This document shows positions 10,103 to 49,960 of a stretch of DNA of 64,000 bases, one piece after another. The stretch is taken from assembly GCA_015227615.1 (NCBI GenBank), contig JAALGZ010000040.1:269070-333069 (forward strand), given 5' to 3'. The first letter of the stretch is position 1; each line of letters starts with the position of its first letter. This DNA is from Labyrinthula sp. Ha. Lineage: Eukaryota; Sar; Bigyra; Labyrinthulida; Labyrinthulaceae. Below the pieces are notes generated by a model. That model was not told the origin of the DNA. It ran no database searches and saw only the letters and a program-made list of their open reading frames with translations. A program made the position numbers and the translations under genes.

Positions 10103-10812
10103 TTAAATTTTTACCAAGCTCGTGTAATATAAAAATCTGGGAAGTTTTTTTTCAGATGTCAAATCCACTGTATAATCTCAAGGTTCGCCTCTAGACAGAT
10201 TATTTAGACATTCAATTTTACCCCTTCTTAACGGTGTTGCGTTTTTCTTCAGAAATGTTAGAGCTTGTTTCAAAGTGAAACAGTTTAATAACAAACAAAT
10301 TTAAAGCTTAATTTATTATATCAAGTCTCGAATCCACTTCTAAAGCGCAACAAATTGATATTCTATAAATTTATTTAAATCTTTGCAGCTTACTTTTTTG
10401 AACTTTGAGATTTTTTTCTGTATCTGACTCTGTGAAGTTTAGCGAAGATTTTTACAACCTTAAAATTGTCTTCCTGAAAAATTTTGTTTTATAATTCTTT
10501 CAATAGAGTTAAATTTCTCTAGCTTTCAAGTTTCATCTAAGCTTTTTTTCTGATTGGACAAGATTCTTGTTTTGGTTTTCTAGCCTAAGGTCTCCTCTTG
10601 TTTTGATTCTAGCCAATAGGTTCTTTTATTGAAAAGAACTCTGGTTGAAAATTGTTCCCAAATTCTATTGTGATGTGAAACCTAATGCAAGTTTTGCCCA
10701 AAATTCCACAAATCTGCTCTAAGTATTATTTGTGAAATCCATACATAGATTCGATCTAGATTTTATAAGAAAACAAATTGCGTCGAGACACAAAAGACAA
10801 GTTGAGACAAGA
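10103..10812. promoter_or_regulatory. 5' region of the hAT-derived gene
   Basis: No gene. TGATTGG (reverse CCAATCA) at about 10551 and CCAAT at about 10613 could be CCAAT boxes. The frame of the next gene is open upstream of its ATG only back to a TAA at 10720-10722. No 8-bp target duplication or terminal inverted repeat typical of an intact hAT element could be found by eye. Confidence 0.3.
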
Positions 10813-12936
10813 ATGAATTACATAAGTAGAACTCATCAAGGGACAAACGAGCCACAACAGTACAGGGGGAAGACTCTTGCTGATGAATTGCTACCTGAAA
10901 TAGGTCTCACACAAAAACATTCACTGACAATACCACAACAGGTTCAAACTCCAAAGAAACCAAAGAAGAAGAAACTTCCAGGAGAAAAAACGAAATCAAC
11001 AGAGAGAAAAAAAGTGAGTAAAGCGCATAAATACTTTTTGCCTGCACCTGGAAAACCAGATTTTAAAACTTGTAGAGGTTGCGGAAATTTAATAAAGAGT
11101 AAAGATGGTAATACAAGTGGACTCCTAAGACACGCAAGAAGATGTATGAAAGTTGGAGATGATGAACTTGGATCTGTTGGAAGGGAGTCAAAGAAAAAAA
11201 AACCAAGATTAGACTCAAAGCTTAAAACAGATTATTCATCTATGAAAAAACTCTCTTTAAACCTTGTTTCCAAATCATTTGAAGAAAAGTTAGTTGATTA
11301 TTTAATTGAAGATAAGCTTCTTGTGACTGCTTTGAAAAAAACAGGTTTTATGAGATTAATTCAGTCTCAAAGGACACCTATAGAACATGTTTCAGTAAAT
11401 AACTTACATAAGATAGTGAAAGCAAGACATAAAGGAGCACTCTCGAGAGTAAACCAAGTATTACAGAATACTAAAGAAGCTTCTTCAATCTCTGTATATG
11501 TAGATTCTTGGAGTAGTTCTTTAGTTGAAGGATATGTATCTATTGGAGTACAATTTCTTACTACGGATTTCAGTCTTAAAAAACTTATTTTATCATATAC
11601 AAAACTTGATAAAAATTTAGGTGCTGAAGGTTTAGCATCGAAAATATTTTCAACATTAAAAGAATTTAGGTTATTAAAAAGAATAAAAACAATAACCTCA
11701 GCAGGAGTTGGAGATATTTATGAAGCAACTTCTATTCTAAGAAATAAGTTATTACAAGAAGTGGACAATACAATAAACAATAATAATGAACCTTCTGTTC
11801 CTTCTGCAGAAGATTTTCAATTAACTTGTATGGGGAAGATGATAAATACTTTGACTAAAGAATTACTAAATGCTTTTAAACATACTATAGAAAAACTAAA
11901 AGGCTTTGTAGGGTTTTGGAATTCTTCACAATCTCTATTGAATAGTTGGGAAGATGCAGTTGTTTGGAGTTTGCAAGAGAATGGTGATTTATTATCTTCT
12001 CTATCTGGAGTAAAGAAAGAAAAAAATAATAGTGATAGAACAACTTTACCTTTTTTCTTTAATAAAACTGATTGGATATCTACTTTAGAGTTTTTAGATC
12101 GTTTTGGAAAGAAAGGAAGTTTGTTGATGAACTCACAGAATAAAGCTCAACAAAACGTAACTATTCCTGATGATTTTGTACTAGAAGAAGAAGATATTAA
12201 AATATCAGATATCTTGGCTGGTTTACTTTCAGATTTTAGTCTCTTTGTTAGAATCAGCTCCAGTGAAGATAATGTTACTTTATCTTCTAGAAAACTTGGA
12301 TTTGATAGACTTCTTGCGAATTTGGAAAAGTCTAGAAAAGAACTGTCAGAGTTGAATAATTCAGATATATCTCAAAAATATAAAACTTATCTATCCTCAG
12401 TTGACAAATACTTAGATAAGCTGAAAAAAATAGTTCAAGAATATTCAGATTCAAGTTTGTCAAGTTTATTCTGTCAACTTGCTTATCTTTTAGATAAAAG
12501 GTTTCCACAAAATAGATATCATTCTTCTAAGGCATGGGAAAAGAATTATCAAATTTTAGTAACATATCTTCAGCAACTTAAATATACACCATTACCTCCA
12601 CAGTCTATGATCAGATCCTTGGATTTGATAAAGGTAGCTCAGCAAATGCAGGGAACACCACAACAGGAGGCTACAGATATTGCTCAAGAAATAACTGAGT
12701 TCTTGGATTTAAACTCTGTAAGTCCTCAAAGTGATATTCTAGAATGGTGGAAAATTCATTCCAAGAAATTTCCAAGACTAGCTTTGGCAGCTAGACATAT
12801 TCTTGCAAGTCCTTCTTCCTCGTGTTCAGAAGAAGCGATCAAGTCTCATGAGGAACAGAAAAATTTAGATGGAGATATAGCAAGAGACGAGACCTTTATC
12901 CAGCGCATGGAATTACGCAGTTGGGTATATTTATAA
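10813..12936 (+). CDS. hAT-transposase-derived BED zinc-finger protein, probably catalytically dead
   Basis: 707 residues from the first ATG (10813). The frame runs 27 codons further up to a GTG at 10732, so an upstream exon is not excluded. Residues ~10-65 are Lys-rich. A BED finger follows (TCRGCG...LLRHARRC; C87, C90, H107, C111). The hAT core starts with a VYVDSWSS segment matching the first catalytic Asp (D231). The second Asp block, usually T-D-N-A/S, reads ITSAGVGD, so the Asp is missing. The usual Cys-x2-His helix reads TCMGKM, so its His is missing. The C-terminus keeps the hAT dimerisation signature (LEWWKIHSKKFPRLALAARHIL...SSSCSEE). The long open frame with lost catalytic residues suggests a domesticated DNA-binding protein, or a recently dead element. 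It is convergent with the protease gene, 71 bp away. Confidence 0.75.
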   Translation: MNYISRTHQGTNEPQQYRGKTLADELLPEIGLTQKHSLTIPQQVQTPKKPKKKKLPGEKTKSTERKKVSKAHKYFLPAPGKPDFKTCRGCGNLIKSKDGNTSGLLRHARRCMKVGDDELGSVGRESKKKKPRLDSKLKTDYSSMKKLSLNLVSKSFEEKLVDYLIEDKLLVTALKKTGFMRLIQSQRTPIEHVSVNNLHKIVKARHKGALSRVNQVLQNTKEASSISVYVDSWSSSLVEGYVSIGVQFLTTDFSLKKLILSYTKLDKNLGAEGLASKIFSTLKEFRLLKRIKTITSAGVGDIYEATSILRNKLLQEVDNTINNNNEPSVPSAEDFQLTCMGKMINTLTKELLNAFKHTIEKLKGFVGFWNSSQSLLNSWEDAVVWSLQENGDLLSSLSGVKKEKNNSDRTTLPFFFNKTDWISTLEFLDRFGKKGSLLMNSQNKAQQNVTIPDDFVLEEEDIKISDILAGLLSDFSLFVRISSSEDNVTLSSRKLGFDRLLANLEKSRKELSELNNSDISQKYKTYLSSVDKYLDKLKKIVQEYSDSSLSSLFCQLAYLLDKRFPQNRYHSSKAWEKNYQILVTYLQQLKYTPLPPQSMIRSLDLIKVAQQMQGTPQQEATDIAQEITEFLDLNSVSPQSDILEWWKIHSKKFPRLALAARHILASPSSSCSEEAIKSHEEQKNLDGDIARDETFIQRMELRSWVYL

Positions 12937-13007: not shown

Positions 13008-13967
13008 TTAAACCCTGTCTTCCTCCACAGCAGGGGTTTCAACAACTTTCTTACTCTTCTTATATACCATAGCAGCAACAAAAGCAGCAAGTGCAGCTAA
13101 AGCAACTCCAATAACTGCAAACTCAACAGTACTTTTACTTACTCTAGTATGTACAGTTACAGAGTCTCCATTTTCCAACCAATCACTTGTCTCTCTATAT
13201 CCTAAGTCAATCATATCAGCACCAAGTTGAATTTTTTCTCCAGTAAAAGCTTGCTTAGGTAAAGTATAACTTTCAGCAACACTCAAATCAACCTCATATC
13301 CCATATCAATAAAACTCTTGATTGTCATAATAGAAGCTGGGTTAAATACTCCAGAATTTAAGTATCCAGTCATCAACTCCTGTTCATAAGTAGTTTCATC
13401 CCAGTGTGCTCCAGCTGTTCCTGCACCTCCATCCAACTCTACTTGAATAGATCCACTTCCACCTAAATCTGCTAGACCTTCATTTCCATTTGCTCCAAGA
13501 TAATCACTTCCTCCAAAACAGATTCCAAAGAAACAGGAAGTTGATACTAATCCAAAGTTAGTCCAAGCTGATCCAAGACCAAAGGAATGTGCCATTTCGT
13601 GACGAATAACTTCTCCAAAGTTACCTCCATCCAATAAACTTTGAGAATCTGCTGTGTCAAACTGCATAACTCCCAATCTTGGAAGGTTATTGTCAAAGGT
13701 ACAAACTCCTGCTTGTGCTAGAATTGAACCAGAACCATCAATAGAGGCAAACTCTGCTAAAAGTACAGCTCCATTTACCACAAATGGACTTGGAAACGTG
13801 TAGGTGATTAGACACCCACTAGGTACTGAGGATCCACCAAGATCTACGGAACCAATTCCAGAACTTAGTAAACCTGCGTTCCAGTAATCCTGAGCGTCTT
13901 CAAAAAGAGAAAGGAAAGGTTCATCCATTCCACTAGGAAAAACTAGAGTCATATAACCGTCCGACAT
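13008..13967 (-). CDS. leishmanolysin-like (M8) zinc metallopeptidase with C-terminal membrane anchor
   Basis: 319 residues. The zinc site is H-E-M-A-H at 123-127 with the catalytic Glu, the third ligand is His188 in AGTAGAHWDE, and the Met-turn is ELMTG around Met199: the spacing of gametolysin/leishmanolysin-type M8 enzymes. One hydrophobic segment (282-302) is followed by a short basic then acidic tail. Such proteases act at cell surfaces or in the secretory path, but no signal peptide or pro-region is visible: the protein opens directly in the catalytic fold (MTLVFPSGMDEPFLSLFEDA). Either the first exon is missed, or the protein is tail-anchored. A 35-nt GT-AG candidate just upstream was tried and gives a stop. 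Spacing of Cys is sparse (C52, C89, C145, C150). Confidence 0.85.
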   Translation of the reverse strand: MSDGYMTLVFPSGMDEPFLSLFEDAQDYWNAGLLSSGIGSVDLGGSSVPSGCLITYTFPSPFVVNGAVLLAEFASIDGSGSILAQAGVCTFDNNLPRLGVMQFDTADSQSLLDGGNFGEVIRHEMAHSFGLGSAWTNFGLVSTSCFFGICFGGSDYLGANGNEGLADLGGSGSIQVELDGGAGTAGAHWDETTYEQELMTGYLNSGVFNPASIMTIKSFIDMGYEVDLSVAESYTLPKQAFTGEKIQLGADMIDLGYRETSDWLENGDSVTVHTRVSKSTVEFAVIGVALAALAAFVAAMVYKKSKKVVETPAVEEDRV

Positions 13968-27174: not shown

Positions 27175-30100
27175 ATGATAGCAACCATTTTGAAGATATT
27201 CTTGATACCCTTTATCAGCGTTGAAACAATCGAGTCCAATGGTATATATTATCCCGTAAATTAATGAAGTTTACTTAGGTAAGTTGATAATTCGTGAAAT
27301 TAAACCAAAGAACTATTGGACCAAATATACGTTGGCGTTTCTTATGAAATTGGGAATTGAGTTAGGAGAACTCAATTTGAACATACAAGAAATAGAAGTA
27401 CAGTATGAGAATAAAAAGCTATGGAAATTACCAACACCTTTCATCACAATTCTCTCTGTTTCTATTTTGTCTCCGGAACTTTCGTTTACTTTGGTTAATG
27501 TTGATCAAGAAAAACTAAATGCTGCAGCAAATATGGCGTCCAAGGCATCAGAACAGGCGTTTCTAATAAACCTGGGGAAGAAATTACTTTTATCATTTGG
27601 ATCTTTCTTTATATCCGAAACATTTTCTTTATCTCTTGGCTGCATTTACTTTTCTTTTGGTGAGCTGTCTTTCAATCTGCATGAGTTAAGACTTCTCCTG
27701 TTCGATAAATCTGTTTCCATGGAAAAGTTTCAGCTAAGCTCATACAAAATTCAAGTTCTATCTCTTGGTTTTCTTTCAGCCGAACTAGTTGATGGTATAA
27801 GTTTAAGAACGAAACTGGTAGATGTTGAAACTGAACCTTTAACTTATTTCTTGGATGAAACTTTACCACCTATGACTTTACCTGAAATAACAGTGGAGAT
27901 GTTTGAACAAGTTCTAGAAGGTGGGATAGCAGCTGGTAAGAGTTTAGTTAATATTTTCTTTGAGTCGAATCTAGAACTCAAGGTGGAAAGATTCAAACTT
28001 ATAATTCTGAGACCAACATTTGAAGTTAGATACGAAGTTCAGATATCTTTTGATCTGGCTTTGAATTATAACAACCTAAATGTTGCGGTAGGTCCAGTAC
28101 AAATAAAAAAACTAGAAGGAATTCAAGATCAATTCCTCTTGGAACCTTTTGGAGCTGAGCTTTCGATAAGCAAACTAGATTTTGCACTTGCTCAAACAAG
28201 AGACATCTTGGAAAAGGACTTGAACTCTCATTCTCTTTTCAACTTCAAGCATAAGCGCAGACAAAACTTTACATCTATATCAGTTCTGAAGTTGGTTGAA
28301 CACCGACTTGGAGTTGAAGATGAACCTTCTGTTTTTTTTGGTTTGAATTGTGACCCAATCTCTATCGCATTAGATCCTTATGATATATCTTATTTTGCTG
28401 GTTTCTTAGGTTCTGGCACACCTGCAGAACCAACTGATAATTCAATTAACCTATATCCATTCGTAGCAGTGTTGCACCAACATATTAGACCTCTGCTTTG
28501 TGATCAGTTTATTCTAAAAGCAGATATTTATAGAGTTAATTTTACTTTGGTGCATTTCAATAGAAAAAATGAAGTTACAAACAGACTCAACTTTTATTTG
28601 GATACCCAAACCCTTTTTGGATATACTTGTCTTCGCAAGTCGTACTTAGACTTGAGATATCATTTCGCTGTTGGTTTCTTTCATGATGAAGAAGTAGTTA
28701 TCCCTAGATATTCTGTTGAAACCATTCTATCTCGTAAAAATAAAGAAGAACCAGTAAAGTTTCAACTAACAAGCCAGAAGAAAGTCAAGGTTGCTATTTC
28801 AGCTGCTTTAGGGGCTACTTTGTCTAATTTTCTCAGTTTAGTTGTCGATCACAAAGGTTATGTATTTCACCAGAAACTGTTCCCTGAGGATAGAGTGAAA
28901 AACCTAACTGGATATCCTATAGAGTTCATTAGAGATGGAAATGTTTTCTTAGAGCTGAAGCATGGTGAGGAGCACATGCTGAATACAAAATCAAAATTTT
29001 TATTGCATCAATTATCAACCGAAATCAGAATTCTTAAAGCCGATTATCTCAACTTAAAGCGACATCTGCTTGAAAAACATCTATGGAAACAACGAAAAAT
29101 GAAGCCAGTTGCTGTTGAGGACATTGAAAAAGCCACGAATGGAAAAACAGCCTTAGAGTCTACAGAATACATATGTGAGAATCTGAAACTGAATGAGGTT
29201 GTGAAGAATATGCAATTCATTCCAGTATCCTTAAGTCCCCATGCACTGCAGACATGGGTTCGGGACTCTAAATTATCTTCTGGTGCTTCCTGGGGTACTC
29301 TGTGCTCCACCATTGGGATGTCAACTACGGAAAAGCAGTCTGTGTTTAAGATTAAATCAAAGTACGCGAAAATACCTTGCCCACTGCATCTTGGTACCAA
29401 TGGAAAAATATTCAGCACCTTCTTAGTTGAAAATTTTACTGGAAGTGAGATTAAGTTGGAAGCTGGGAATATATCGCAGTATGTCAGCTCCAAAATGATA
29501 TCAAGCTTATCGCCCTCTATCTTGGTTGATAAAAAAAGTCCATTGATGTTTGACGTGGACAATAGTAACTTTAAAGTGCCATTTAGACTTGAAGTAGCCA
29601 ATGTCAAACCAAATGAATCTTTCTTAGTTCGTAATACTAGTAAGCAAAGTATTTTATGTACTTTGTTACATAAAACGATTAATCGAGAAATTGACAACAA
29701 TTCCAAGCAGTGGTGCAAAGTTGTTATAAGACAATTAGTATTGACCGCTGGGTCTACTGATAAGAAATATCAAGTTACTGTACGTACACAACGAACTACG
29801 GTTGTGAATGAAATGGTTCCAACCTCTGAGAACCCTAGTACGTTTTCGCCTCTGCATAGGCAATCATTGATACTCGAGAAACTTAAGAATGAGTCATTGG
29901 TCTTGGAACTTGTTAAGAAACCAGATTCTCACCGGAACTCCATATTTAAGAGAAACAGAATCAAAATAAAAGCATCAATTAACTTTGATTTCGATAGTCT
30001 GACCACCTTGTGCAAAGGAATAGATACATCTCAAAGACTGAGCCGTAAAATGCCACTCAAAAGTACCAAAAATAAAGAGAATATTGGATTTGTATTTTTT

Positions 30101-32467
30101 GACATCTTCCCTATAGAAAATATCGAGCCTGCATTTAGTCTTATCAACTCCAGTCCAACGTTTAAGATCTTGCGCATAAAACCTATTTTTCGGTTGGAAA
30201 ATAAGCTGCCATATAAATTGACTTGGACAAATGAGAAAGAACTAAGCAGTATAAGCCCTGGAATTTCTAAAGAAATGTTTGTTGCGGAAGATGATTGGAT
30301 CTCCCTGTTTGAATCGGGTAAGTTCTCCCTTCAAGCAGCTGATGGACAGCTTTTTGGACTGAATTTGCTTCACTACAGCGATGATGAAGCGTGTTTTGTC
30401 TTGTTCTCTGGAACTGATGCTGTAGGAAAGTTATTTGCACAGTTTGTTGGACGGAAAAAAAGGATCTTCAGATTTTTCTATGAAGGCCAACTAGAAAATA
30501 ACACAAACTTGGATCTAATTGTTGACGGAATTACGTGCGAACCAGGAAATAAAATTTTTTTCAGTAAGCCTTCCTCTGGAGAGTTATCGTTGAAGATTGG
30601 TTCAGAAGGCCTTGATATACCCCTTCAAATCTTAACTGCAGACGGACTTCCAAACGTAGCCATTGACAATCTCGCAACCAAAATCAATGGCATAAAAAAG
30701 CATTTTGCTGTGGATATAGCTACACAGAGGGTTACTGCCTCCGTTCAAGTATCAATATCGCCTCTCACAACTTTTGATTTTTCTGCTTTTGAAAGTATAG
30801 TGAAGCAAGACAATTTGGAATACAGGTTTAATGTGCACCACAAAAGAAAATCTCCCCCAAAGGTGCAACCAGTTTTTAACAGTTCCTTCGAGAATGCAAA
30901 CTTTATATTACCAGTGTACGAGAAGTTCGAGGATGAGTTTTACGTTTACGCTTCTTGTAAATATACAAAGATCAGTTTCATGGTTGGATCTATTGAAGGC
31001 AATTCAAAGTCAAACGTTTTCTACTTGCATCTTCTATCCAAAGATTTAGAGCATTCTCAAAAAGTAATGGTTAAGAGAGAGGTTTCCAGCAGTACTTGCA
31101 CCTTTCGCTTTCTCCCGTTGCTTGATAGCGAGGCACCAATCAGAATAAGAAACCTTACAGACGAGACGCTAGTATTTTATAATGATCAGAAAAAAACAAA
31201 AGCCTTGGGAAAATGTAGTGGAAAGTCTACATCAACATTAGTTCCCCCTAGTGCCGCTACTCTAGTAGCATCAAAATCCCGTCGATTTTCTTTCTATATT
31301 ACTGGAAGCCACCTCAAACCAGTTCGTATTAGCCTAAGGCACGGGTTCAGACATTCAAAGGGGAATTCTCATATTGAGGTATCTCATTACGACCAATATG
31401 TAGTAACGGTTGGGTTTCCTAAAACACTTACTGCTACCGATAAAGAAATGGTAGATTCTCATTTTAAGTTTCAGGCAACCTGCTATATTCCTGGTTTGCA
31501 TGTTGACTTCTTTGGGTTTCATGAACAACAACGTCGAAAGATGTTCGTTTTGAAACTAAGGCGTCTACTTTTGGTTGCTCAAGCGACACGAAAACCTTCA
31601 AACCTTAACTTCTCTTGTGTTACATATATGAGCTCCTTTGCACTAACAGGTTTAGACGCAAGAAATGAATTCAAGACCATTGGAAAGAAGAAAAAGAAAT
31701 CGTCAGATGAAGATGCAATTGCCACAATAGATGATCAATGGAGTCAGGAAATATTGAAAGAATTAAAGTTTCTTGTCACGCATGATACAGATCCTTTGCT
31801 ACTATTTTTCTGTCATATAAGTCTACATCTTGGAAGGTCCTCCTTTATTAAAGCAATAGTTGAATCTGTAGGATTTAGATTGGCAGACAGTGAATTCTCA
31901 ATCAATCAAACATCTATAATAAATGCTCTTCAGATGATTTCACCAGCGTTCTCAACTAATGATGTTGAATGTAGTCAGCCATCTACGGGAAGTGTTGGAG
32001 GATTTTTAGATGCTCTAGATCATATTTGGGTTAACCAGATTGTATTGCATCCGCTCGCAATCAACTTTTCCTGTTCGTTTTCACCAGCAAAAACAGGTGA
32101 GATGATGGATATTCTTGGGTTGGACTTAGGGTCATGGTTGAAATATCTAGCGATATTTGCTCAACTAAAGGATTTTCATTATGATCTAAATCGATTTCAT
32201 GTTAAAAGTGAGTCATTGAAACAGGTAGTCGAGAAATTAATACTTAGAGTTATTAAATCCGTCGCTGCCCAGTCACATGAAATTTTGTTGAATCCTGTGA
32301 AACGGCTTTCCAATGCTTTACTACGTCATAGTGAGGAAGTTACAATCCAAGAACTTGTATTTTTTCTATCCGAAGAAGTGATTAAAAGCAACCAATACGG
32401 GGGCTGGAAAGAAACGTTCGAGGTGAAAATGGCAGTCGCAAGTATTGAACGTATAAATTCGCGATAA
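27175..32467 (+). CDS. VPS13-like bridge-type lipid transfer protein
   Basis: The main exon is open from 27260 to a TAA at 32465-32467, but its first codons give only TTG (27284) and an internal ATG (27344). I propose exon 1 at 27175-27241 (22 codons from ATG plus one base), a 37-nt intron 27242-27278, and exon 2 from 27279; this joins in frame. The ~1750-residue protein is made of repeated beta-rich, Leu/Phe-alternating segments as in VPS13/BLTP rods. Near the C-terminus are a segment like the VPS13 adaptor-binding/SHR-BD region (APIRIRNLTDETLVF) and a helical tail like the VPS13 C-terminus (LHPLAINFSCSF, then LNPVKRLSNAL). VPS13 proteins move bulk phospholipid between membranes at contact sites. 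A clear chorein N-domain and a C-terminal PH domain are not seen, so it may be diverged or shortened. It converges on the RING/Tubby gene. Confidence 0.6.
27242..27278 (+). other. candidate 37-nt intron in the VPS13-like gene
   Basis: Donor G|GTATAT and acceptor TTTACTTAG|G. Removal joins the ATG frame starting at 27175 to the long frame (split Gly codon, phase 1), while the unspliced ATG frame stops at 27262-27264. The borders resemble those of the sulfotransferase micro-introns (GTATAT and ACTTATAG). Confidence 0.4.
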
Positions 32468-47451: not shown

Positions 47452-48718
47452 ATGCCTTGGCTTGAAAAAAATAAAGTTCTTTTCATTCATGTACCAAGAT
47501 GTGGTGGAACTAGTATTACTAAACACCATCGTGTAGGTCAAAAAGCACAACAAGGGAAAAATATAGTTCAAAGGTACCCTTTCTGTTTTACTCTTACTTC
47601 TTAGACTTGCAATTCAATACTATTACTATCGATACCAAATACTTGAAACAGCAAACTTTCCTTTTGTTACCTATGAAAATTTATTTGCACTTTGCCAGTA
47701 TGTCGTAGCAACTGTAGTTTTCTTCTTTGTTCCTGGTTTGTTTCTCCCATATATGATGTGGTCTACTGCAACTTTCCTTTTCATAAGTTCTACTTTTATT
47801 GAAACTGCACCAATTCTTATGAGAGTTGATATTATTAGAACTGCTTTAATGGTTTTTCTCGGTACAATATTAAGAGGATTAGGAAGTGATACTGAATATT
47901 TAGTAGGAACTAATGAAAAGGGATATTTGTTTCACTTAACAGCAGAAAGATGTATAAGATATGGATATGTTGAAAAAGAACTTGTAGAAAACTGTAGTTT
48001 CAGTATTATAAGAAACCCATATTCAAGAATGGTATCTATGTATGAATATAATAAAAGATTGGGTGAAACTTTTGAAGCTTTCGTTAAAGACTTTTATAAA
48101 ATATATATGAAACAATATGCTGAAAAGAAAAGAACTGATTCCAAATATATATATTGTCATGTACTTCCTATGCATGCATATACACATGGTTTTTCAGGAG
48201 AACAACTAGTTAATACTATTATTAAACAAGAACACTTGAAAAAACTTGTTGCAACAAACTGGGAAAACTCAAATATTCCAGAAGAAATACAACAAGCACT
48301 AACAGGAATACCTCACGCAAATAGGAGAAAAAGAAAGAAAACTTGGCAAAACTATTATAATCAAGAAACTATGGACTTATGTTTGGAAATGTATTTGAAG
48401 GATTTCGAGTTATTTGGATATGATATTCATATTCCAAATAGAACTGATTTAATACCAAAGTTTCAATTAGAAGAAACAACTGATATAAGAGAACAACCAC
48501 CTATTGGGGTAGAACAGACTTCAAAAGTAAAGAGAAGAGCAACAACAACTGGAGAAGAAACAAGTGAAACTAGTTATTTCAAGGTTCAAATAACAGAAAA
48601 GGATAGAAAACCCTCTATTTCAGGAGAGTCTGTATTGGTAGAAAAAGATAATATTATGAGAAAACGTAGAGCAGCAAGTGCTTTTGTCATAAATCACGTA
48701 CATTTGGAAGTTGCTTAA
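47452..48718 (+). CDS. PAPS-dependent sulfotransferase with internal membrane segments, two exons
   Basis: Exons 47452-47573 and 47605-48718 (411 residues). Read straight through, the ATG frame stops at 47599-47601 and the main frame lacks a start; removing the 31-nt GT-AG segment joins them in frame and aligns without gaps to the neighbouring paralogue spliced at the same point. The 5'-phosphosulfate loop is VLFIHVPRCGGTSI (9-22), with Arg in place of the usual Lys. The 3'-phosphate motif is IIRNPYSRMVSMYEYN. Between them lie a Tyr-rich strand and about 50 hydrophobic residues (ATVVFFFVPGLFLPYMM through ETAPILM), enough for two membrane helices. The rest matches Sulfotransfer_2. It should move sulfate from PAPS to a glycan or other hydroxyl acceptor; the acceptor is unknown. 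The C-terminal tail is charged. If the splicing is wrong, this is a single-base frameshift. Confidence 0.8.
47574..47604 (+). other. 31-nt micro-intron
   Basis: AAAG|GTACCC at the 5' end and a pyrimidine-rich run to ACTTCTTAG|A at the 3' end. Phase 2 (AG|A makes Arg). Its presence puts a stop and a frameshift in the unspliced frame. Position and phase equal those of the 30-nt segment in the paralogue at 49809-49838. Confidence 0.7.
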
Positions 48719-48757
48719 CTTTGTAAAACAATATTCTTATATAAAGCATTTGTAAAG

Positions 48758-49960
48758 CTATGCATGAATAATAGTTTCGACATTTCTAGGTTCCAAAAGT
48801 TGCCCAGGCTTCCCTGTATTGATAGAATCAGAGCTACCTGTCTCATAAGTTTCCTCACCAGCACAAGAACTTTTTCTTCTAGATACCAAAGGCGTAGAAA
48901 TTTTGACTACTTGTGGTTCTCTTTGTTTTAGAACTTCTTGTTCTGTTTGAACCTTTGGTACAAGATCAGTTCGTCTTTGTATTTTAACATCATAATTAAA
49001 CTGCTTAAAGTCCTCCAAATACATTTCCAAACACATATCCATAGTTTCTTGGTCATAAAACTGTTGCCAAGGAAGTTTTCTTACTCTTTTATTCGCATGA
49101 GGAATACCAGTTAGTGCTTTTGCAACATCTTCTGGAACTTCAGAGTCTTTAAATTCAGTTGCCATAAGTTTCTTTAGTTGTTCTTGTTTCAGAATAGTAT
49201 TCACAAGTTGGTTTCCTTCTTTATCATAAATATATGCTGACATAGGTAATACGTGACAATATATATCTCTAGTATCTGTCTTTTTATTAACTGAGTAAGT
49301 ACTCTTCCACTTCTTATAAAAACTCCTAACAAAATGAGGAAAACTCTCTCCTAGTCTTTTATTATAACCATACATAGATACTAGTCTTGAATACGGGTTA
49401 CGAACTATTGTGAACGATTTCTCTTCCAACTGTTCTCTTGTTACATACCCATAACGTAAACATCTTTCAGCTGTTAGATGCCAAAGAAACCCTTTCTCAT
49501 TTGAACCAACTAAGTATTCTGTTGAAGCTGGCCAACTAAAAAGGATATATCCGGTTAGAATAGAACCTGCTCTTCTTACAAGATCACACCTCATCAAAAT
49601 AGGAGCAGTAAAGATAAACGTCGAAGTAAAGAACAGCATGGTTGCATTTGCCCAAAGGAAATATGGCACTAACAAGCCAGGTACAAAGAAATACAAGCAT
49701 AAACCAAGAAGGACTTCGAACAAAACAATACAGTTTTCATATGATACCAAAGGGAAGTTTGCCTTCTCCAACAACGCATATCTGTAGTGAACATAGGTCA
49801 GGAAAAGCCTATAAGTAATAAGAAGTCCAAACATATACCAGTTCATAAAAAACTTTCCCTTTTTAGCTTTGTTTCCTACCCGATGATGTTTTGTTATACT
49901 AGTTCCACCACATCTTGGAATATGGATAAAGAGTACTTTATCTTTCTCAAGCCAAGGCAT
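48758..49960 (-). CDS. PAPS-dependent sulfotransferase, paralogue of the adjacent gene
   Basis: Read straight it is 400 residues; with the 30-nt intron 49838-49809 removed it is 390 (exon 1 is 49960-49839, exactly 122 nt as in the sister gene). Motifs: VLFIHIPRCGGTSI (9-22) for the 5'-phosphosulfate, FTIVRNPYSRLVSMYGYN for the 3'-phosphate, and GSNEKGFLWHLTAERCLRYG between them. A hydrophobic block (CIVLFEVLLGLCLYFFVPGL, then MLFFTSTFIFTAPILM) separates the two PAPS motifs, as in the sister. TAG stop. Convergent with the sister at 39 bp: an inverted tail-to-tail duplication. The proteins are highly similar through the catalytic part and diverge in their Ser/Thr-rich C-termini. Likely Golgi or ER membrane, but which face the active site is on is unclear. 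Confidence 0.85.
   Translation of the reverse strand: MPWLEKDKVLFIHIPRCGGTSITKHHRVGNKAKKGKFFMNWYMFGLLITYRLFLTYVHYRYALLEKANFPLVSYENCIVLFEVLLGLCLYFFVPGLLVPYFLWANATMLFFTSTFIFTAPILMRCDLVRRAGSILTGYILFSWPASTEYLVGSNEKGFLWHLTAERCLRYGYVTREQLEEKSFTIVRNPYSRLVSMYGYNKRLGESFPHFVRSFYKKWKSTYSVNKKTDTRDIYCHVLPMSAYIYDKEGNQLVNTILKQEQLKKLMATEFKDSEVPEDVAKALTGIPHANKRVRKLPWQQFYDQETMDMCLEMYLEDFKQFNYDVKIQRRTDLVPKVQTEQEVLKQREPQVVKISTPLVSRRKSSCAGEETYETGSSDSINTGKPGQLLEPRNVETIIHA
49809..49838 (-). other. 30-nt micro-intron (silent in the reading frame)
   Basis: Reading on the minus strand: TG|GTATATG at the 5' end and TTACTTATAG|G at the 3' end. Being 30 nt without a stop, it hides in the open frame. Splicing gives TGG (Trp) and makes the region align residue for residue with the spliced sister gene. 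Confidence 0.6.

Follow-up and report, generated by a model that had tools for sequence, protein, structure and literature searches.

Very short GT-AG introns as the best reading of two segments in a convergent sulfotransferase gene pair of Labyrinthula sp. Ha

Two neighbouring sulfotransferase genes of Labyrinthula sp. Ha each carry, behind a first coding stretch of equal length, a segment of 31 or 30 nt that begins with GT and ends with AG. One of these segments breaks the reading frame and the other leaves it open. The locus raises the question of whether segments this small are removed from the transcript or form part of the coding sequence. Both are most probably (roughly nine chances in ten) ordinary tiny GT-AG introns, inherited from a common ancestor, removed by the major spliceosome and belonging to a genome-wide class of about 27-32 nt. 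Sequence and annotation together point to this reading through the match to a public gene model (P0002), the gap-free fit to the protein family, the introns of other genes and a motif excess that is specific to one spacing.

The gene pair and its two short segments

The window, which is the whole stretch of 64,000 nucleotides that was analysed, forms the end of contig C89 in a genome of 50.84 Mb and 153 contigs. Its G+C content is about one third, and inspection by eye of its last 300 bases, which are also those of the contig, found no telomere-like repeat. Other features of the window include a 734-residue open frame on the plus strand (10732-12936) with a BED zinc finger and a hAT dimerisation domain, resembling a hAT-type transposase, a minus-strand open frame (13008-13967) with a partial match to leishmanolysin (peptidase M8), and a plus-strand open frame of 1727 residues (27284-32467) that has no Pfam match at E 0.01. 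A search of solved structures returned no more than three matches, each weak and each to GpsB, the best at E 0.015.

The sulfotransferase genes are convergent, one spanning 47452-48718 on the plus strand and the other 49960-48758 on the minus strand, with 39 bases between their stop codons. Both products match the sulfotransferase family 2 profile, PF03567 (34.4 and 35.7 bits, curated cut-off 22), and are predicted enzymes.

In the plus gene, the frame opened by the ATG at 47452 ends at the TAG that closes the 31-nt segment; the next frame is the long one. Removal of this segment (47574-47604, phase 2) joins a 122-nt first exon (47452-47573) to a second exon (47605-48718) that carries the profile match, and yields a single open frame of 411 residues; the first-pass annotation had rightly proposed that the removal cures both the frameshift and the stop. 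Retention leaves a TAG stop within the intron. A protein search returned two public gene models, P0001 and P0002, evidently from this strain or one almost identical to it. P0002, whose start corresponds to exon 1, is identical to the spliced product at 411 of 411 residues, and its header reads QI 314/1/1/1/1/1/2/73/411. These fields follow the MAKER format, and we take them to describe two exons with every splice site supported by transcripts (value 1). As P0002 has two exons and its coding sequence requires this junction, the reported splice support must refer to the 31-nt intron.

The minus gene is less constrained by its frame, which is open either way. Its first exon lies at 49839-49960 and its second exon, with the profile match, at 48758-49808; the 30-nt GT-AG segment between them (49838-49809, also phase 2) is free of stops and divisible by three. 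The product has 400 residues with the segment and 390 without it, the ten added residues being hydrophobic. The first-pass annotation had held this copy to be invisible to frame-based gene prediction, a claim contradicted by P0001, which is the public model for this gene and does place an intron here. That intron, however, is 45 nt long (49853-49809) and takes 15 residues out of the open frame. The second QI field in the header of P0001 is 0, which we read, again assuming the MAKER format, as no splice support.

The coordinates, letters and shared phase 2 of both segments are as first described, and each 5' exon is 122 nt long. The first exons had also been called identical; this stands for their length and fails for their sequence, as 92 of 122 bases and 21 of 40 third positions agree. 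An alignment of the letters of the two introns is no better than chance (389 of 2000 shuffles were equally good), as expected for old intron sequence. The two paralogues would have received the intron from their common ancestor instead of gaining it twice. The PRCGGTS motif of the plus gene lies in exon 1 and is presumably the PAPS-binding loop, in which case splicing would join the exon that encodes it to the remainder of the enzyme.

The sulfotransferase homologues provide a measure of the junction, as the distance between the GGTS and RY motifs hardly varies across the family. A YRY pattern matched 19 of the 118 proteins examined (P0003-P0120) and gave 27 residues in 18 of them and 25 in one. 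The products spliced at the 31-nt and 30-nt introns both measure 27, the unspliced minus product 37 and the 45-nt model 22. With a looser pattern, 77 of 96 proteins (P0003-P0098) were measurable and 19 unmatched. The spliced spacing was found in 69 of the 77, 66 by pattern and three by eye; P0006, P0061 and P0071 are clipped by the pattern and by eye have the spliced rather than the 45-nt spacing. No measurable homologue has the unspliced spacing and, once these three are corrected, none has the 45-nt spacing. The other eight deviate by -2 (P0022), -1 (P0098, by eye), +1 or +2 (five proteins) and +8 (P0015). Both spliced proteins fit the family without gaps. The relatives include Hondaea, with diatoms further down the list, and some come from transcript collections (P0004, P0006 and P0010 carry an MMETSP source). 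Four models, P0008, P0013, P0014 and P0017, begin downstream of the intron position and do not contain the PRCGGTS exon; a small intron may be the cause of its loss there as well.

These spacings bear on two alternatives. That the real intron of the minus gene is the 45-nt form, with the same 3' site and a different 5' site, has the public model on its side and is nonetheless distinctly unlikely: this form deletes five residues that the plus paralogue and the family retain (22 versus 27), the header of P0001 provides no splice support for it, and it is the 30-nt form that matches the supported paralogue in exon-1 length and phase. The minus gene thus appears to use the 30-nt intron, and the 5' boundary of P0001 is judged wrong by comparison with the family. 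The second alternative treats both segments as coding, the 31-nt one with a one-base sequencing error or frameshift and the 30-nt one as a plain coding, membrane-like stretch. The single base by which the segments differ in length is consistent with this, as is the open, hydrophobic reading of the minus gene through its segment. It is nevertheless highly improbable given the exact agreement of P0002 with the spliced product and its reported splice support, the ten extra residues that none of the 77 measurable homologues has against the spliced spacing in 69, and the presence of the same kind of intron in other conserved genes of the genome. GT-AG spliceosomal introns, as the first-pass annotation had it, are the best reading of both segments in view of the P0002 match and the family spacing.

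Short introns of similar size elsewhere in the genome

The expectation of more such introns in the genome was borne out from sequence in the genes for CCT-alpha, CCT-beta and CCT-eta and in chaperonin genes on contigs C66 and C13, and by an estimate from exon gaps only in kinesin and myosin genes. A whole-genome search with the Pfam chaperonin profile found genes split into exon matches, with gaps between neighbours of 14-34 nt in eight of ten cases and of 130 and 233 nt in the others.

CCT-beta (C99) has six introns, read as 29, 28, 31, 29, 28 and 30 nt. Compared with 106 homologues of 480-560 residues among the best 120 listed, junctions 1 to 4 are length-neutral in 103, 106, 106 and 106, respectively. 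At junction 5, the 28-nt reading leaves the protein three residues longer than all 106 homologues and is therefore doubtful; the sole alternative considered, a 46-nt form, leaves it three shorter. At junction 6 (30 nt), the protein is length-neutral against two of the 106 homologues and two residues long against 104; P0126 and P0132 have equal length by eye. CCT-eta (C57) has introns of 30 and 31 nt; of 117 homologues (520-620 residues, from the best 120 listed), 109 show no length change at the first junction and all 117 none at the second. The introns of CCT-alpha (C121) are read as 30, 28, 31 and 32 nt after correction by eye of the gene-finder output, the last two lengths replacing introns of 61 and 44 nt, and a 27-nt intron of the C66 chaperonin gene could be 30 nt. 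These re-readings in CCT-alpha and C66 relied on the expected CCT sequence, and the intron lengths in CCT-alpha, C66 and C13 are putative, the comparison with fetched homologues having covered CCT-beta and CCT-eta.

The nearest named labyrinthulomycete proteins among the best 120 listed are from Aplanochytrium stocchinoi, at 73% for CCT-beta and 63% for CCT-eta, and Aplanochytrium sp. PBS07 appears at 70%, also among the best 120 listed; an affinity with Labyrinthulomycetes is indicated. In the CCT-beta list, two longer plant proteins score above Aplanochytrium but have lower identity (61% and 59%). The best 120 listed for CCT-beta and for CCT-eta contain no near-identical protein of the same species, the highest identities over the query being 72% and 64%, respectively. 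In contrast, same-species sulfotransferase models were found, which suggests that the annotation may have missed or broken genes with several introns.

For the exon-gap estimate, neighbouring CCT, kinesin and myosin matches were paired if they lay on the same contig and strand, at most 1000 nt apart and in profile order, and each gap was corrected for the profile positions on either side. Among 33 gaps that change the frame, 20 are estimated at 25-37 nt, five at 68-127, one at 19 and seven at 2-11. Three of the seven belong to weak, stop-containing matches and four to two myosin copies on C75. Fifteen same-frame pairs, estimated at 81 to 603, are probably loop insertions and were left out of the tally. 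The two C75 myosin copies (339024-340497 and 361758-363771) share two profile positions with estimated gaps of only 11 and 2 nt; their frame changes are either small introns accompanied by residue losses or something else. Longer introns exist too, for example one of about 127 nt on C132 in an Hsp60-like gene. The 14 listed proteasome matches, some of them partial, are all unsplit and free of stops, and the DEAD-box matches are single stretches with an internal stop in three of 35 (35 of 61 candidates were scored). Thus, intron density is uneven.

Splice signals, retention and genome-wide counts

A set of 15 introns of 27-32 nt was used to describe the splice signals; it contains those corrected by eye and leaves out the doubtful fifth intron of CCT-beta. 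Exact restoration of the frame with GT...AG ends holds for both window introns and for the 13 others, which had been selected as GT-AG. All 15 end in TAG, 11 begin with GTA and 12 have T at position +6. A YTNAY motif, chosen after inspection of the same 15 introns, starts at position -11 in six and within -12 to -10 in ten. When the intron interiors were shuffled, the mean counts were 0.8 and 2.3, respectively; of 20000 shuffles, 2 matched or exceeded the first observed count and none the second, while 24 reached a count of six at any single position. This motif, with its start 10-12 nt ahead of the 3' end, would represent the branch site. Both window introns would be removed by the major spliceosome, with recognition presumably by intron definition and a branch site that almost touches the TAG end. 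A U5 RNA model found no match in the genome and likewise none in any control genome, and is uninformative.

Early stops arise on retention in 13 of the 15 introns. Six are divisible by three, and two of these, the intron of the minus sulfotransferase gene and the sixth of CCT-beta, are also free of stops, so that their retention would escape surveillance based on stop codons. This property, shared by only two of the 15, would suit a regulated 30-nt intron whose retention gives a second isoform with ten extra residues. Such regulation is unlikely: a ten-residue insertion occurs in none of the 77 measurable homologues, P0015 alone having eight extra residues, and the other intron of this kind lies in CCT-beta, where an insertion would hardly be wanted. 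The reading as an ordinary intron is preferred for the 30-nt segment.

The abundance of such introns was approached by a pattern count that needs no gene model. The pattern GTATNT-N-TTNAYNNNTAG occurs 592 times in the genome at a total length of 27-32 nt, 297 times at 17-22 and 275 times at 37-42, an excess at 27-32 nt of about 306 over the mean of both flanking counts. The reversed pattern, used as a control, gives 271, 340 and 243 at 27-32, 17-22 and 37-42 nt, respectively. Some matches are copies in repeated sequence and hence are not all independent. This strict pattern matches none of the 15 introns in the set and therefore probably captures only a small share of the introns, and a total cannot be computed from the count; a genome total in the thousands is a guess.

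The gene finder gave mixed results. A strict first run predicted 47 introns of scattered lengths. With matrices seeded from eight hand-picked introns, a flat length prior and the CCT loci included, 27 of 77 introns fell at 25-35 nt. With flat matrices, 20 GT-AG introns fell at 25-34 nt versus 4-12 for eight nonsense boundary pairs. Outside the CCT loci, the self-trained finder with a length prior showed no enrichment (15 GT-AG introns at 26-33 nt versus 7-18 for eight nonsense pairs), and nothing beyond the CCT genes was therefore rested on its output. A scan of GT...AG motif spacing over 238 kb on both strands gave no clear peak. In practical terms, standard gene finding can misread introns this small, which puts gene models at risk.

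Short introns in other lineages

The titles and opening lines of abstracts in the open-licence literature yielded no report of such introns in labyrinthulomycetes. The main text of one genome paper on the group (PMC10101102), as far as it was covered, does not mention introns, and the parts consulted of another (PMC12258536) give only exon counts and the exon/intron patterns of two gene families. The first-pass annotation had confined introns this short to a few lineages such as ciliates and nucleomorphs; this is too narrow, as Blastocystis (PMC5608401) is reported to have them too, and Trichomonas (PMC12316389) and mikrocytids (PMC10245619) to have shorter ones.

Blastocystis, a stramenopile that likewise belongs to Bigyra, provides a close parallel in having GT-AG introns near 30 nt. 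One account places the mode at 30 bp, with 54%, 36% and 21% of introns in ST1, ST4 and ST7, respectively, and assigns 98.3% of ST1 introns to the GT-AG U2 type (PMC5608401), whereas another gives a median of 19 nt (PMC12817076). The Blastocystis genomes are reported to span 12.9-18.8 Mb and to carry introns in 85-95% of their genes (PMC5608401); the Labyrinthula genome, in contrast, has 50.8 Mb and several uninterrupted gene families. A labyrinthulomycete regime of micro-introns, probably thousands of them at 27-32 nt, with the branch site beside the 3' end and a Blastocystis-like optimum of 30 nt, is a tentative proposal to which we give about one chance in three. If true, it would point to an old minimum of intron size in Bigyra that a large genome and a reduced gut symbiont have both preserved, with micro-introns partly hidden by wrong gene models. 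With a second Bigyra lineage near 30 nt, an ancestral fixed minimum intron size becomes a testable question, which extends to what the spliceosome requires for such introns.

Narrow length classes of tiny introns are shared with ciliates, where Paramecium and Nyctotherus have introns of about 25 bp and Oxytricha and Stylonychia a class of 33-35 bp (PMC5014332). Paramecium introns divisible by three are rich in stops (PMC5014332); here, two of six such introns are stop-free, a number too small for comparison. The spliceosomal introns of heterotrich ciliates, nucleomorphs and mikrocytids are also very uniform in size but measure 15-21 nt (PMC10245619), in contrast to 27-32 nt here. Trichomonas vaginalis, an intron-poor genome, has short introns as well, in which a fused 12-nt motif unites the 3' splice signal with the branch site (PMC12316389), in place of the loose YTNAY ... 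TAG arrangement seen here. Set beside these systems, the short introns of Labyrinthula represent a new lineage for a known kind of intron, not a new mechanism.
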